Origin: Candidatus Saccharimonadota bacterium
GTDB taxonomy: Bacteria; Patescibacteriota; Saccharimonadia; Saccharimonadales; AWTP1-31
Reading direction: 5' to 3'
DNA length: 45,023 nucleotides
Assembly: GCA_026395435.1 (NCBI GenBank)
Contig: JAPLYT010000013.1
Location: forward strand, 1-45,023
Below, one piece after another: positions 19,552 through 29,668 of the stretch. The position numbers and the translations under genes are program-made. Positions within the stretch are counted from its first letter, which is position 1; the number at the start of each line of letters is the position of its first letter. The notes beneath the pieces were generated by a model. That model searched no databases. It was not told the DNA's origin and saw nothing but the letters and a program-made list of their open reading frames with translations.

Positions 19552-21747
19552 TTATTTAGCTGGTTTTGGGTCAACTTTTGTATCTGTGGTTGTGTGAGGC
19601 AAGATGGTCGAATTCTTCGGTAAAGTAAAGCCGAAGGTGCTTCCCTTACCCTCTTGGCTGGTGAAGATGATTGCTCCACCTTGGGCAACAACCACCTTTT
19701 TGGCCATAAAGAGCCCCAAGCCGGTACCATCTGGTCGTGCCCGACGGGCATTATTGGCCCGGAAGAACTTCGTAAACAGGTTATGTTGTTCAGATTTCGG
19801 CACTCCCAGCCCATCGTCCACCACGGTAAATTCGATAGAATTACCCAAATCTTGCAGTGAAACCTTAATATTTCCATCTTTAGGGGTGTAATGAAGGGCA
19901 TTATCGGTAAAGTTCATGATAACTTGGCGCATTTTGGTCTCATCGAGCATCAAATCGATGAATTTAGCCGGCTTAGCGTATGTAAGGGTCTGATTTTTAC
20001 CTGCAGCAGCCTGTTTGAGCTGTTCGATCTCGGCTTCAACCACATCTGCCAGGTTAGTTTGCTTGTTTTCGATCACAAACTTACCCGTACGTAAGCGAGA
20101 AACGTTCAAGAGGTCGGCAATGAGGTATACCATGCGTTGAGAACTCATAAATGCCTGATCCAACAGCTCTTTCTGCTGTTTGTTGAGCTTTCCAGCGTCA
20201 CCTTCCACAACCATGCTCACATAGCCCTTAACAGCGGTCAGAGGGGTCCGTAGCTGGTGAGAGGCCATACTAATGAACTCATCCTTTGTTTCATCCAGTG
20301 CCTTAAGCTTCTCGTTGGTACGGCGTAACTGCCGAGTGGCGTCATTGACCTTTTCCTGCAAGGTGACGGTAAATGCTTCGATTTCTTCAAATCGCATCGC
20401 ATTTTGGACAGCAATTACGAGTTCGTTGGCGATTATGTCCAAAACCTGCAAATCTTGCTTGTTATAAGGGTTTCCACTCTGTTTACTGCCCAGTGCTAGA
20501 TAACCTAGAGCAATCGTATCCTTCCCTGTTGGCGCCAATCGTGCCAAGACAGAAATCTTATTCTTTGAAAGCACCGCCTTGATCTTGCCATGAGATTCAT
20601 CCAACTCATCAGCAACGATTATCATATCTAAATCTTGATTATGAGCTGTTAATTCGCTTATTTGGTCGTCATCCAGCTCCACTTTCTTTGAGCCAATCAC
20701 CCTTTTCGATGATCCTTCTACTTCTTTGATGATAAATGCGGCATATTCAGCCTTCAACGTGCCTTCCAGCAGCTCAGATGTCTGCCGCAACAGGGGTTGC
20801 AGATCGATATTCCCCACCAAAACCTTGTTGAGTTTATCGAGTAAATCCTGAGAATCATAGGCATCTCGATAAAATAGCCTGTTGGTAAGCTTATCGAAAA
20901 ACTTCCGAAGTGGCTGCAACGTAAACCCAAACACCAGCGTCCCAGCGAAGTAAAACGCCTGCTGCAACGTAGTCAACTTCGAAGCACCCAACAACGATGA
21001 CGATATACCAAATATTGCAATGACATAAATACCGATGAGGGTCCCAAGTGTTAATATATACCCCATGGCCCGTGCAACAATAAGGCGAATGTCAAATAAC
21101 TTATGCTTCACGATCGTATAGCCAACCATTCCAATAAGCAAAAGTGAGAATATTGGGCCAAGTCTGGAGCTGGACCAGTTATCTACATAAAGTGGAAGTA
21201 GGATGTTTGAAATCACAGCCAGAGAGGCGTAAAGCATAATACCACAAGCCACTAACTTTAATTGAAGTTTCTGACTAAAATTTAGACCACTTTTAAATTG
21301 TTTATAGATTACGAAAATAAAAAGTATGATTGAAAATACTGTGTAGGCTAAAAATACATTATATAAATACGAAGTTACGATCTCGTCTCTCGTGACTTTT
21401 TGTATAAATTTATTTGTAAAAACTAAAGGCAGTAATATTAAAGTGAATATTCTATATAACTTTACCACCGTAGTTTTACCCACGCCCGAGTCGATTGGGA
21501 AAATACATAAGAAGTTGACAATTGATGTGGCGGTGAGAATGCCGGTGAAAAACACCATTCGAGTTACTATGTCGCTTGTGAGGAATACCACCGAAAGATA
21601 ATTAAATACAGTCCATGCAATAATTGAAAATGCGAGCAATCCGAATAGCCTATTGATCTTTAATTTAGGATTTCGAATGAGAATCAATAAACCTACGATT
21701 AGCATTGCGAAGGTGCTGACTGCCATTATAATAAAATCAAATTTCAT
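19552..21747 (-). CDS. Sensor histidine kinase with multi-pass membrane sensor and GAF domain
   Basis: A 731-aa kinase. The start chosen is the ATG opening MKFDFIIMAV; a TTG 13 codons earlier is possible. Seven or eight membrane segments occupy about 1-280 (7TM histidine kinase type), a GAF-like domain about 300-455, a coiled coil about 460-490, HisKA with SHQLRTPL (phosphoacceptor His497) and an HATPase domain with NALHYTP, DDGLGVP, FRAN and GTGLGLF. It lacks a receiver. Candidate partners are the two single-domain receivers at 24464 and 27087, both also lacking output domains. The stimulus is unknown. It is transcribed alone, divergent from the DUF2156 gene. Confidence 0.93.
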   Translation of the reverse strand: MKFDFIIMAVSTFAMLIVGLLILIRNPKLKINRLFGLLAFSIIAWTVFNYLSVVFLTSDIVTRMVFFTGILTATSIVNFLCIFPIDSGVGKTTVVKLYRIFTLILLPLVFTNKFIQKVTRDEIVTSYLYNVFLAYTVFSIILFIFVIYKQFKSGLNFSQKLQLKLVACGIMLYASLAVISNILLPLYVDNWSSSRLGPIFSLLLIGMVGYTIVKHKLFDIRLIVARAMGYILTLGTLIGIYVIAIFGISSSLLGASKLTTLQQAFYFAGTLVFGFTLQPLRKFFDKLTNRLFYRDAYDSQDLLDKLNKVLVGNIDLQPLLRQTSELLEGTLKAEYAAFIIKEVEGSSKRVIGSKKVELDDDQISELTAHNQDLDMIIVADELDESHGKIKAVLSKNKISVLARLAPTGKDTIALGYLALGSKQSGNPYNKQDLQVLDIIANELVIAVQNAMRFEEIEAFTVTLQEKVNDATRQLRRTNEKLKALDETKDEFISMASHQLRTPLTAVKGYVSMVVEGDAGKLNKQQKELLDQAFMSSQRMVYLIADLLNVSRLRTGKFVIENKQTNLADVVEAEIEQLKQAAAGKNQTLTYAKPAKFIDLMLDETKMRQVIMNFTDNALHYTPKDGNIKVSLQDLGNSIEFTVVDDGLGVPKSEQHNLFTKFFRANNARRARPDGTGLGLFMAKKVVVAQGGAIIFTSQEGKGSTFGFTLPKNSTILPHTTTDTKVDPKPAK

Positions 21748-21872
21748 ACTACAATTTTCTAAGGAACCTATTATGCTTAACTTCAATATAAATCATATCA
21801 AATAAAATGGTTTTAACGCAGAAGAAACACCAAAGTATACAAATTAAATAATAAACCTGTATTATTACTATA

Positions 21873-24463: not shown

Positions 24464-24832
24464 GTGCAGAAAAAAATAGCAATAGTTGAAGACGACAGAC
24501 CTATTGCTGAAATGTACAAGTTTAAGCTTGAATCTGCTGGATTCAAGACTTGTGTTGCTTCCAACGGCGTTGAGGGACTTGTAGTAATTGAAGAGCAAAG
24601 CCCGGATTTGATTTTGCTTGATTTACGGATGCCGGTAATGAGCGGCGACGAGATGCTCGAGAAATTGCGTCAGACTGAATGGGGTGCTCCAATTCGTGTC
24701 ATCATTTTGACAAACATTAGTAGAGATGAAGCCCCTCGTGCACTTGGGTTATTGAACGTGGATCGATATATCGTCAAAGCACATCACACGCCACAACAAG
24801 TTCTCGACATAATTAACGAAGTACTATTATAA
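24464..24832 (+). CDS. Single-domain response regulator (receiver)
   Basis: A 122-aa receiver with the acidic pair EDD near residue 9, phosphoacceptor Asp in LILLDLRMP (about 50), Thr in IILTN and Lys in IVKAHH. There is no output domain, so it works by protein contact, as in CheY or Spo0F. The start is GTG. A close relative lies at 27087. It is directly upstream of the RiPP-like precursor and may be read into it: the gap is only 67 nt and has no strong terminator. Confidence 0.92.
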   Translation: MQKKIAIVEDDRPIAEMYKFKLESAGFKTCVASNGVEGLVVIEEQSPDLILLDLRMPVMSGDEMLEKLRQTEWGAPIRVIILTNISRDEAPRALGLLNVDRYIVKAHHTPQQVLDIINEVLL

Positions 24833-24885: not shown

Positions 24886-24891
24886 AGGAGG
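24886..24891 (+). promoter_or_regulatory. Strong Shine-Dalgarno of the precursor peptide
   Basis: AGGAGG lies 8 nt before the ATG at 24900. It is one of the best ribosome-binding sites in the window and decides the start between three nearby ATGs. A weak TTGAAA-17-TATGTT pair upstream (24845-24873) could be its promoter. Confidence 0.7.
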
Positions 24892-24899
24892 GCCATGGT

Positions 24900-25073
24900 A
24901 TGAATGAGCAACTACGAATTAATCTAGCAGAAACTGCAGATGTGGCATTAACGTCACAAAATTTAGGTAGGATAACAATTCTTGAAGCACTTGCAATAGA
25001 ATCCGATCTAATTTCCATAGATGGAATGGGGCGTTGCACTCCTGATGGTACAGGCGTCGACTTCGATGACTAA
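24900..25073 (+). CDS. Small peptide, candidate graspetide precursor (57 aa)
   Basis: The frame runs from ATG 24900 to TAA 25071-25073. It starts MNEQLRINLAE, has a hydrophobic amphipathic middle (RITILEALAIES) and ends in RCTPDGTGVDFDD. The tail has two Thr, one Cys and five Asp within 13 residues, while the first 45 are leader-like. Graspetide precursors have such a C-terminal core in which Thr or Ser side chains are linked to Asp or Glu by ATP-grasp ligases, and a ligase of that family is encoded two genes downstream. The ribosome-binding site is strong. The peptide class is inferred from context, not from homology of the peptide itself. Confidence 0.7.
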   Translation: MNEQLRINLAETADVALTSQNLGRITILEALAIESDLISIDGMGRCTPDGTGVDFDD

Positions 25074-25090
25074 ACTTAGTACTTAATTAA

Positions 25091-25267
25091 TACATAGGCG
25101 ACAGTATTATAAAAACCTATTATAAATTTCCAGAATATCGAAAGGAACTTATTGATCTTGCCAATAAAGATCAGCTTGATTTACGCTCGAAATTACACGT
25201 TCTAAACCAAATTTCGGATAAGAAAATTAGGCAGTCTAAACTCGATGGGCTCTACTATGACTGTCAC
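25091..25267 (+). other. In-frame coding-like extension upstream of the DUF6624 gene, without a standard start codon
   Basis: Between the in-frame TAA at 25088 and the ATG at 25268 there is no ATG, GTG or TTG, yet the 59 codons read like protein (FPEYRKELIDLANKDQLDLR) and fit the opening of DUF6624 proteins. The ATT at 25106 has AGGCGA 4-9 nt upstream and is the likeliest start, giving a 216-aa product 32 nt after the precursor stop. A sequence error or decay of the start codon are alternatives. Confidence 0.55.
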
Positions 25268-25756
25268 ATGCGTGCGCTTCGTATGCAGGAGATAATGCTT
25301 AAAATAAAAGCACCAAGTATTGAGTCGATCGGGACCGATGGTTGCGAGGCGATATTATTACTTGCGCAACATTCATACCTAAGCTGCATGAAAGAAGTGC
25401 TGAGTATATTTCTAGAACAACACGCCAATAATTTAGATTCTGTGCCGATAATTCATTTACCTTCATTACAAGACAGAATTATGGTCTTCGAAACTAGAAA
25501 ACAGCATTACGGTACGCAGTGGAAACAAGATCCTAAAAGTGGTCAAATATATCTTATTGAAATGGATGATTTCAATTTTGTTAATGATCGGCGTGCGATA
25601 TTTGGATTAAAAAAGATCAGAAGACCCGTAAATCTTGCTAAAGGAGCGGTTAAATATCCTTTGGGAAAAGGGCTGGCAAAAGAAAGTGATCAAAAAGCAT
25701 TGTCTGCTGAGGCCTACAAGGAAATGACCAGATACGCGAAGTGTCTGGTCATTTAA
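25268..25756 (+). CDS. DUF6624-like protein (conservative start)
   Basis: 162 aa from the first standard start; the true protein probably begins about 54 codons earlier (see the extension). DUF6624 features are the GTDGCEAILLLAQHSY helix, SLQDRIMVFE, the signature HYGTQW and NDRRAIFGLKKI. The biochemical role of this family is unknown; its His, Tyr and Asp/Arg motifs suggest an enzyme. It lies between the precursor candidate and the ATP-grasp ligase, with 9 nt to the ligase start, so it is part of the same operon and may be a maturation or immunity factor. That last point is inference. Confidence 0.72.
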   Translation: MRALRMQEIMLKIKAPSIESIGTDGCEAILLLAQHSYLSCMKEVLSIFLEQHANNLDSVPIIHLPSLQDRIMVFETRKQHYGTQWKQDPKSGQIYLIEMDDFNFVNDRRAIFGLKKIRRPVNLAKGAVKYPLGKGLAKESDQKALSAEAYKEMTRYAKCLVI

Positions 25757-25765
25757 ATCTGTTTT

Positions 25766-26518
25766 ATGGAAAAATCTATACTTATAGCGGCGTCAAACTA
25801 CGATGAACATGCCTATGGACCAGTAACCGCTATTTTAGATTCAAAAGGTTTCAATGTAGTTACCTACTTAACCGACAAAGCACTTTCGGGCGAAGATGAT
25901 TTCCATGTTTATGTGAATGAGGATGCAGAGGTGCAATTGGCGTACAATGGGCAGCCTATTGATGTCGAAAATATTGGAGCCGCCTGGTTTAGAAAATTAT
26001 TGGCTTTTGAGCCGATCACAAGCGATCCAACTAAAAAACTATATATCAATTCAGAAATATTACACCTACATGATACTATTTGGGATTTATATCCCGACAA
26101 TCTTTGGTTAAACTCTCCAAATAATATTAAAAGGGCTGATCGAAAAATTAGACAGCTTCAGGTCGCGAAGTTAGCTGGTTTTACTATCCCGCCGACAATA
26201 ATATCAAGCACCTGGGAAAATATTGAACAAAATTTAATGCCAAATTATGATGAGGATATTATTGTAAAGACTATTCGGGGGATAATCAATGATGAAGAGA
26301 CAATAAAAGCCCATTTTACAACTGTACTGACGCACGAGCAAATACTGGCTATGAAAAACAGCGTGTCCCCCTATTTAGGACTTTACCAGCCTTTCATAGA
26401 TAAATTAAGGGAGTGGCGTGTCACCGTTGTGGGCAATGATGTACATTCTGCGTCCATAGAGACTGATCTTGCGGCAAAAGATCCGTATCTTGCCAACTTT
26501 TACCCCCTAGTTTTTTAA
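25766..26518 (+). CDS. MvdD-like ATP-grasp ligase, C-terminally truncated
   Basis: 250 aa, against roughly 320-330 for graspetide (microviridin-type) ligases. The family signature WLNSPNNIKRADRKIRQLQ is at 114-132, followed by AGFTIPPTIISS, ATP-binding Lys168 in IVKTIRG, the linker LYQPFIDK (206-213) and EWRVTVVGNDV (216-226). After about residue 230 the match stops: the usual DWR segment and the EINPNG-type motif with the Mg-binding Glu and Asn are missing. The last 33 codons overlap the convergent GNAT gene, which reads better there. No Shine-Dalgarno is seen; translation may be coupled. It may be a decaying ligase, a peptide-binding remnant, or an assembly problem. Confidence 0.8.
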   Translation: MEKSILIAASNYDEHAYGPVTAILDSKGFNVVTYLTDKALSGEDDFHVYVNEDAEVQLAYNGQPIDVENIGAAWFRKLLAFEPITSDPTKKLYINSEILHLHDTIWDLYPDNLWLNSPNNIKRADRKIRQLQVAKLAGFTIPPTIISSTWENIEQNLMPNYDEDIIVKTIRGIINDEETIKAHFTTVLTHEQILAMKNSVSPYLGLYQPFIDKLREWRVTVVGNDVHSASIETDLAAKDPYLANFYPLVF

Positions 26519-26885
26519 ACAGCTTCGAACTCTTCTCATTAGCAAAAGCGAGTATTAGTGAAGGTCGTAGTTCTTGGCTGACTTTTGAGACTACCTTACG
26601 GGTTAGCTCTGATCCTATTTTATGCCCTCGTAGATCAGGGTTAACGACCAACGCACCGAATTCAACGACATCACTGGAATAAATTACTGACACAGCAGCA
26701 TAACCTGCAAGTTCATTGTCTAGATACGCACACGTCGACAGATGATGACGAGCAAGGCTCTCATAACTTAATGGGATCATTTCATCGGGCCTATTTGACC
26801 ACTCAATTAAATTGTGTACGTCTTGGTCCGATTCGAGATCAAGATCTCTAAACACAAGTCCAGATTCATGTCCAAAATTATTCAT
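26421..26885 (-). CDS. GNAT family N-acetyltransferase
   Basis: A 154-aa acetyltransferase. The core is GYAAVSVIYSSDVVEFGALVV, then the CoA-binding loop NPDLRGHKIGSELTRKVV, and FANEKSSKLFKKLGG, a usual GNAT ending. The last 30 residues (after LGG) look non-conserved and overlap the ligase by 98 nt. Microviridin clusters include a GNAT that acetylates the peptide N-terminus, so a role in the same locus is possible, but it is convergent and has its own promoter region. It may equally act on another amine. Confidence 0.82.
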   Translation of the reverse strand: MNNFGHESGLVFRDLDLESDQDVHNLIEWSNRPDEMIPLSYESLARHHLSTCAYLDNELAGYAAVSVIYSSDVVEFGALVVNPDLRGHKIGSELTRKVVSKVSQELRPSLILAFANEKSSKLFKKLGGKSWQDTDLLPQDQSLWTQNVHHCPQR

Positions 26886-27086: not shown

Positions 27087-27458
27087 ATGGCTATAAAAGT
27101 TGCAATTATTGAAGATGATCAAGCGATCAGTCAGATGTATCGGATTAAATTCGAGGCCGAAGGCTACGATGTAGAAACTGCTGAAAATGGCAAGGTTGGA
27201 CTGGCTGTATGTGAGAAAATGAAGCCAGAAATCATCCTGCTGGACCTTATGATGCCCGAGATGAATGGTGATGAAATGCTCGAGAAATTGCGTCAAACCG
27301 ACTGGGGTAAATCGATCAAAGTCGTTATCTTAACAAACATGGGTGAGCAAGAAATTCCTGCCAGCGTCAAATCACAAAACGTTAGTGCCGTAATCCTTAA
27401 AGCAGACATGACTCCTCGTCAGGTCGCCGAACTCGTCAAAAAAACCATCGACGGCTAG
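27087..27458 (+). CDS. Single-domain response regulator (receiver)
   Basis: A 123-aa receiver: IIEDDQ acidic pair, phosphoacceptor Asp in IILLDLMMP, Thr in VILTN and Lys in ILKADMTP. It is a paralogue of the receiver at 24464, sharing GDEMLEKLRQT and the same length. No DNA-binding part. The pair flanks the RiPP-like locus, and the kinase at 19552 is the only kinase in the window. It is convergent with the HIT gene (20-nt gap). Confidence 0.93.
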   Translation: MAIKVAIIEDDQAISQMYRIKFEAEGYDVETAENGKVGLAVCEKMKPEIILLDLMMPEMNGDEMLEKLRQTDWGKSIKVVILTNMGEQEIPASVKSQNVSAVILKADMTPRQVAELVKKTIDG

Positions 27459-27979: not shown

Positions 27980-29668
27980 TTATTTTGTGACATCAGCAAT
28001 TTTTGTGGCGAAGTTCTTGCTGTGAACAGATAACGTAGTGGTGCCTGCGCTCAAACTTGAGCCTTTTATAAACGTATAGTATACGCTGGCTCCTTTGGTG
28101 AGATCGTTCGGATTGAATCGCTGGATTGTGGCGCCATTCTGGATAGTAGAAGAGCAGGTGTCGGTTGCATCGACTCTGCATACCAGCAATATAGATTCGT
28201 CTGAGGCAACAGCACCGGTTTTAGAACGCGTGAGTCCACCGGTCGGAGGTTGGCGGGATTGTATTGCGGTTGTGCCCACCGTACCAGGAGGATTGACGAG
28301 AGCACTGGCGAGAAGCGTGGCTTTGTGAGCATTGACCCGTCCTGCTCCGTATTGATCAGTCCTACCTGCTCCACTCATGCCAGCAACTTTGTCGGTAGAA
28401 TCGATAAGAGCTCTTTGCAATTGTGCCACGGTAGGGTTTCCGAGCTGTGCGCGCAGAATACCAGCAAGCCCTGCCACAATAGGAGATGCAAACGACGTTC
28501 CGCTCGCGGCGCTGACATATCCATCGGTGGTATACACGCTGCTCCAGCTAGCGAGAGGTCCTACCAAATCTCCAGGCGCTACTACGTCAAGCTCAGCACC
28601 ATAACTACTGAATCCACTTCGATTATCCGATGAATCGGTCGATCCTACCGCAAGCACTTTAGGATATTTCGCCGGGTAGGCCATGCGCCCTGGTGCGACC
28701 ATATTGGCACAATCTCCGGCAGTACTGTTTCCGCAGTTCCCGCTGGCTGCCACTACCAAAACGCCACGATCCGTAGCGTAGGTGATAGCGGTGTCCATTG
28801 CCACGTCATAGCCGCTTCCACCAAGACTCATGTTGATGATCTTGGCTCCGTTATCGGTGGCGTATTGGATGGCTGCTGCGATAGCGTTGGTAAAACCTTC
28901 GCCGTCGTCAGACAATACTTGAAGCGGCATAATCTTGGATTGCCAATCCATCCCGGCTGTGCCGACACCATTGTTGGCCTGGGAGCCAATCAGGCTACTT
29001 ACCATGGTTGCGTGCTGCGTGCCAGTACCGATAGGATTTGTCATACCCGTTTGTGGGGAGTTATCATTGTTCACAAAATCCCAACCCCTGGTATCGTCGA
29101 TATAGCCATTTTGGTCATCGTCACAATTGTTGGTCGCTTTATTCGACGCGACACCAGTCCAACATGCATCGCCCAGTTTCGTTATTCCGGTTTCACCACT
29201 ATTGGTAGCCCACTTATTTGCGAGGTCTTCATGAGCTAATGCAAACCCTGTATCGATCACCGCGATAACCGTGCTTGCACTACCGGTAGACATATCCCAA
29301 GCTCGGGCAGATTGAATGGTTGTATGATGCCAACTACTGGCAACCTGCGGGTCGTTCGGTGTTTGCAAAGCGTAATAGGCTAATTGCGGGTAATCTTTGC
29401 CTGCCAAAAGCGAGCTAGCGAAGGTATTTTCGCTATTTGGAGCAGGAGTGCTTTTAGATGCTTCCTGCTTTTTTGGCTGCGGTGCTGGCACCGGCGCTAC
29501 GTTCACATTTTTAGAAAGAGCTGACGGTGATACAACTGGGCTTGAGCCAACAGGAGTAGCTGGAGGTAGTTGTACCTTGGCTTGAAATGACGGCGCAGCC
29601 AAAATTACACCAAATACTATGATGATTGCGGCAATTTTTGTAATGAATAGTTTTTTGATTTTTATCAC
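27980..29668 (-). CDS. Subtilisin-like serine protease (S8), exported
   Basis: A 562-aa protease with an N-terminal hydrophobic segment (about 10-28, IAAIIIVFGVILAAP) for export or anchoring. A Pro/Ser-rich pro-region runs to about 110. The catalytic triad is Asp139 (VIDTGFA), His219 (GTQHATMVSS) and Ser392 (GTSFASP), with oxyanion Asn311 (ASGNCGN). A Cys-containing insert at about 165-195 (CDDDQNGYIDD) resembles a Ca-binding loop. The last 100 residues form an unidentified C-terminal domain. The start is GTG. It could process surface or secreted proteins, possibly also peptides of the neighbouring loci; the substrate is not shown. Confidence 0.93.
   Translation of the reverse strand: MIKIKKLFITKIAAIIIVFGVILAAPSFQAKVQLPPATPVGSSPVVSPSALSKNVNVAPVPAPQPKKQEASKSTPAPNSENTFASSLLAGKDYPQLAYYALQTPNDPQVASSWHHTTIQSARAWDMSTGSASTVIAVIDTGFALAHEDLANKWATNSGETGITKLGDACWTGVASNKATNNCDDDQNGYIDDTRGWDFVNNDNSPQTGMTNPIGTGTQHATMVSSLIGSQANNGVGTAGMDWQSKIMPLQVLSDDGEGFTNAIAAAIQYATDNGAKIINMSLGGSGYDVAMDTAITYATDRGVLVVAASGNCGNSTAGDCANMVAPGRMAYPAKYPKVLAVGSTDSSDNRSGFSSYGAELDVVAPGDLVGPLASWSSVYTTDGYVSAASGTSFASPIVAGLAGILRAQLGNPTVAQLQRALIDSTDKVAGMSGAGRTDQYGAGRVNAHKATLLASALVNPPGTVGTTAIQSRQPPTGGLTRSKTGAVASDESILLVCRVDATDTCSSTIQNGATIQRFNPNDLTKGASVYYTFIKGSSLSAGTTTLSVHSKNFATKIADVTK

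Follow-up and report, generated by a model that had tools for sequence, protein, structure and literature searches.

The locus described here lies in a 45,023-nt window (the whole stretch of DNA analyzed; positions 1 to 45,023 of contig JAPLYT010000013.1) from a Candidatus Saccharimonadota bacterium. Between two genes for single-domain response regulators, RR1 and RR2, the window encodes a small peptide, a DUF6624-like protein, an ATP-grasp ligase and, on the opposite strand, a GNAT acetyltransferase (Table 1). The original prediction placed these genes in a graspetide-type locus of a candidate-phylum bacterium, and this class assignment stands because the combination of peptide, DUF6624 and ligase is found repeatedly at different loci.

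Table 1. Coordinates of the locus and its borders within the window
Feature	Position	Strand	Remarks
Histidine kinase of the conserved neighborhood	19552-21786	-	
RR1, single-domain response regulator	24464-24832	+	Left border of the insertion
Shine-Dalgarno-like AGGAGGG	24886-24892	+	Ends 7 nt ahead of the peptide ATG
57-aa graspetide precursor homologue	24900-25073	+	Leader with ITILEALA; core GMGRCTPDGTGVDFDD
DUF6624-like open frame	25091-25756	+	221 codons; without ATG/GTG/TTG before 25268
MvdD/MdnC-like ATP-grasp ligase, truncated	25766-26518	+	250 aa; homology stops at ~nt 26482
GNAT acetyltransferase, convergent	26421-26885	-	PF00583, E=1.3e-10; probably a bystander
Inferred deletion junction	26483-26520		3' part of the ligase gene lost here, possibly the GNAT 3' end too
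RR2, single-domain response regulator	27087-27458	+	Right border of the insertion

Based on NCBIfam profiles (MvdC, E=1.3e-21; MvdD, E=2e-19; residues 6-233 covered), the ligase has pre-ATP-grasp and ATP-grasp domain homology to MvdC, MvdD and MdnC, and a profile of its family matches MdnC/MdnB (5ig8, 5ig9), AMdnB (7m4s), CdnC (7mgv) and PsnB (7drm). Judged by these matches, the enzyme is a member of the microviridin/graspetide synthetase family (MdnC/MdnB/CdnC). The WLNSPNNIKRADRKIRQLQ stretch, originally taken as the signature of an MvdD-type ligase, lies within the conserved region of the family; family and stretch were thus correctly recognized, but the enzyme is truncated. A first scan of genome contigs with the window ligase as the single query gave no matches. 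Relatives are present in 22 of 393 genomes of the same order (the window genome counted), mostly as open frames of 320-344 codons, and a named scan recovered Ca. Saccharibacteria MAGs, several MAGs titled 'bacterium', some of which are the same contigs as loci compared here, and one Streptomyces, one Flavobacteriales and one 'Proteobacteria' record. Three related loci (L030, L031 and L032) have full-length ligases that are 44-49% identical to that of the window, together with a neighboring precursor and DUF6624; in a tree, the window ligase clusters with these three and the Streptomyces ligase with moderate support (93/96).

Compared with the 320-344 residues of its relatives, the window ligase has only 250, and homology ceases at approximately residue 239 (model position ~232 of 321). 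The missing ~80-85 C-terminal residues include the D-W-R motif and the LECNPNGQ segment, i.e., the C-terminal catalytic/metal-binding part (D-W/F-R; LEC/LEM/LEI-NxNGQ) that is present in intact relatives. In ATP-grasp enzymes, the LECNPNGQ segment carries metal ligands. In the comparison set, each of the other 13 ligases extends beyond window residue 239, and the 21 invariant columns in that region are all missing in the window. The D-W-R motif of the intact relatives aligns with MdnC and presumably equals the 'DFR' motif of graspetide synthetases that has been termed critical (PMC13097080), an equation that is our own. The missing C-terminus was found neither in any frame of the window nor on the other contigs of the genome, and we therefore rejected the idea that it is masked by a frameshift or relocated. 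Heavier decay of the ligase body was likewise rejected, since among the 239 residues left 2 of 27 invariant columns are altered, compared with 0-5 in other ligases. Because the body is no more eroded than in relatives, these data point to a recent truncation.

The 57-aa peptide and its strong ribosome-binding site are as originally described. In nearly all saccharibacterial loci examined, a small peptide directly adjoins the ligase. The precursors have in common a leader motif, (V/I)(L/F)EALA or TVFEKLA, and the leader of the window peptide is conserved in L030, L031 and L032, such that the ligase neighbors a precursor with a conserved leader, as in a graspetide cluster. Because its alignments to the L031 and L030 peptides outscore 5000 of 5000 shuffles, the window peptide is, on this statistical evidence, more than a chance ORF; the score against the L032 peptide lies above all except 5 of 5000 shuffles. 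The similarity signal is located in the leader. For the last 19 residues alone, 249, 2961, 2437 and 2903 of 5000 shuffles match the score in four comparisons, and the Thr/Asp tail is therefore not demonstrably conserved. Thus, of the Thr/Asp-rich end in the original prediction, the Thr and Asp residues are present and acidic residues are kept, but the match to the cores of relatives is no better than that of shuffles; the leader is conserved and non-random, and conservation of the core Thr/Asp positions is not detectable. The core pattern SNxS(T/S)...D of the relatives is not found in the window peptide; SNxST...D-DD is common to the L030 and Streptomyces precursors, and L031 and L032 have close variants. 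Variability of the core is usual in RiPP precursors. Two main types of loci can be distinguished: the first lacks a nearby DUF6624 gene (precursors such as MSLETLSREQ...TVFEKLAQ...NSVTRLGDGQTVPDER), and the second has DUF6624 and cores such as DISRSNASTVPAGDADDQ. Judged by the moderately supported clustering of its ligase, the window locus belongs with the second type.

The DUF6624-like gene was confirmed as a homologous open frame but not as a conventional gene. Its match to Pfam PF20329 (E=7.8e-4, 19.4 bits) falls below the curated cut-off of 27 bits; the homologues in L031 and L032 clear this cut-off with 40.3 and 36.6 bits, respectively, and the window frame has clear homology to the saccharibacterial relative scoring 40.3 bits. 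The first standard start codon, at 25268, lies inside the domain, and an ATT at 25106, preceded by AGGCGA, is the sole plausible (nonstandard) start. A ligase, or what remains of one, lies next to DUF6624 in the window, L030, L031, L032, L039 (on the opposite strand), L043, L110 and L113, and DUF6624 occurs without a ligase in L103-L105, G004 and others. Because it is found both with and without the ligase, its role is experimentally separable. Conversely, many precursor-ligase loci have no DUF6624 within several kb. The suggestion that DUF6624 takes the place of a second ligase is not supported: in many saccharibacterial loci, the only ligase is unaccompanied by DUF6624. A structure model from four sequences (mean pLDDT 69) has a mostly helical N-terminal part; a search of the PDB gave no significant structural match (best E=0.61) and no sequence relative.

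The convergent GNAT gene is present as originally noted but is probably not a component of the locus. Its 3' end runs antisense into the end of the ligase gene with an overlap of 98 bp, it has no match at related loci, and none was found in family mates; distant matches occur in 7 other genomes of the order. We therefore rejected the GNAT as a tailoring or immunity gene and, given the lack of a related-locus match together with the overlap, regard the convergent arrangement as a local accident. The final ~20 GNAT codons lie on the strand opposite conserved codons of the ligase, which makes a deletion fusing two converging genes plausible. The GNAT tail (LLPQDQSLW..CP) resembles tails within its own family, and truncation of the GNAT itself is therefore uncertain.

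Four of six family mates (G001, G002, G003 and G005) have RR1 and RR2 side by side, with 46-108 bp between the matched ranges in G002, G003 and G005 and a tandem of three in G001. In G004, the slot between RR1 and RR2 holds only a DUF6624 gene, split across two contig ends. In other families, the cassette occupies other positions in the same neighborhood, i.e., the kinase-RR1 gap (L042, L043), beside the kinase (L036), or after folD (L030), and in L031 and L040 a transposase-like fragment, read by eye, precedes the peptide. The variety of sites and the transposase-like fragments fit a mobile, short-lived cassette. Peptide, DUF6624 and ligase or ligase remnant also occur together in L043 and L110, and further damaged copies include interrupted ligase genes in L042 and L044 and, in G174, a DUF6624 gene broken by stop codons. 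At L110:4406-5501, a peptide and DUF6624 lie next to a ligase stump, and at L113:4462-5239, DUF6624 lies next to a C-terminal scrap of a ligase. Near the window locus, a gene for a subtilase-family protease is located at 27980-29668(-); it was rejected as a leader peptidase because it has no match in related loci. Neighboring ABC transporter genes were rejected as exporters because their related-locus matches are merely generic.

Altogether, our findings make it likely that the locus is a recently broken saccharibacterial graspetide cassette, consisting of a precursor, DUF6624 and a single ATP-grasp synthetase, that came to lie between the genes of two response regulators. The synthetase of intact relatives would recognize the leader helix around (V/I)(L/F)EALA and spend ATP on phosphorylating Asp/Glu side chains of the core; attack by Ser/Thr side chains on these phosphorylated groups would give the ester rings. 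DUF6624 may serve as a partner, in tailoring or in self-protection, and we prefer a partner or tailoring function. In the window copy, a deletion probably took the last ~80-85 codons of the synthetase, and ring formation is accordingly not expected; the cross-linked product originally proposed thus seems out of reach for a ligase without the catalytic C-terminus. The ring-forming enzyme has lost its catalytic end, and the gene set is thus most probably a recent relic that no longer functions. Nevertheless, the lack of erosion in the ligase body and a DUF6624 frame that is open over 221 codons suggest that parts may remain under selection.

A separate proposal concerns the function of DUF6624 and is no rival to decay of the cassette: DUF6624 would confer immunity or self-protection, and cassettes losing the ligase would keep, or drift toward, DUF6624 alone. 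The ligase-free DUF6624 genes at the same site in G004 and in L103-L105, the retention of DUF6624 beside the ligase remnants in L110 and L113, and a free-standing integron cassette in Klebsiella argue for this proposal; however, the many precursor-ligase loci without DUF6624 are incompatible with an obligate immunity gene, free-standing copies may be explained by another role, and a fold match is absent. We therefore consider immunity unlikely. In a broader and more doubtful version, DUF6624 in Saccharibacteria would shield the maker of a graspetide weapon rather than serve as a modifying enzyme, and fast cassette turnover at a kinase/response-regulator hotspot would leave orphan DUF6624 and precursor genes. 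The integron cassette is located on a Klebsiella pneumoniae plasmid (L141:3980-4525; NZ_CP009874.1), where DUF6624 lies between dfrA1 and aadA1 in a class 1 integron.

As to the broken ligase, the truncation could be an assembly artefact, with an intact cluster in the real genome, and the genome is indeed a draft of 17 contigs. However, the genes flanking the locus on either side (RR1, RR2, histidine kinase and Mur-ligase-like) agree with those of relatives, no other contig carries the missing C-terminus, and the DUF6624 start is missing as well, which makes an artefact improbable. It is more improbable still that the cluster works with a truncated but active ligase completed by DUF6624 as a partner protein: partner-dependent graspetide synthetases exist, as in the case of rosaritide MirB/MirC (PMC13097080), the conserved ligase body is not eroded, and the peptide retains its leader and strong ribosome-binding site, but ligases adjoining DUF6624 are full length in L030, L031, L032 and L043, the invariant or near-invariant D-W-R and LECNPNGQ are absent, and truncated ATP-grasps have been characterized as catalytically inactive (PMC8939145).

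Microviridin loci are characterized by a second ligase and a PFFARFL-type leader. The intact saccharibacterial ligases have the ligase family and motifs in common with the microviridin synthetases MdnC/MdnB and CdnC; unlike these, they have neither a second ligase alongside nor a PFFARFL-type leader. Makarova et al. (2022; PMC8939145) described graspetide loci in CPR bacteria, and their CPR branches 1 and 2 resemble the present loci in their CPR hosts, diverse precursors and an uncharacterized accessory protein; accessory protein cluster 23 has a conserved His and Arg, and the leader motif of these branches is Phhx(1,2)h, compared with (V/I)(L/F)EALA here. Carter et al. (2026; PMC13097080) found DUF6624 to be frequent in graspetide groups 18, 20, 23 and 42, which combine precursor, graspetide synthetase and DUF6624 as in the window, where, in contrast, the synthetase is truncated; groups 27 and 42 have many candidate-phylum members. 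Based on these two studies, the combination of precursor, synthetase and DUF6624 in CPR is known in outline, contrary to the novelty originally claimed for a Patescibacteria version with DUF6624, and the window holds a decayed member. Saccharibacteria are named in neither of the two main texts, but we claim no taxonomic first. CPR graspetides have been suggested to act on the host or rivals (PMC8939145); in the literature, we found no product or role for those of episymbiotic CPR. The intact relatives, L031 and L030 foremost, are compact three-gene sets open to direct testing, and the window copy, which is unsuited to expression, is chiefly of value as an example of decay.

Relatives of these genes also occur outside CPR. 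In Streptomyces sp. DSM 110735, a ligase (L069:4977-5978) shares 46% identity with its saccharibacterial counterpart, and the precursor (L069:6049-6186) ends in SNQSTPSAGDADDQ, almost the core of L030; the 11 kb examined around this ligase contain no DUF6624. The likeness of ligase and precursor makes gene transfer between Saccharibacteria and actinobacteria possible. A viral origin of the locus was rejected, as IMG/VR contained no relative. The Leptospira phage vB_LalZ_80412-LE1 (L144:2122-3816; KF114876.1) encodes a graspetide-synthetase-like ATP-grasp with 34% identity; a 37-aa ORF precedes its gene, and a membrane-protein-like ORF follows it.
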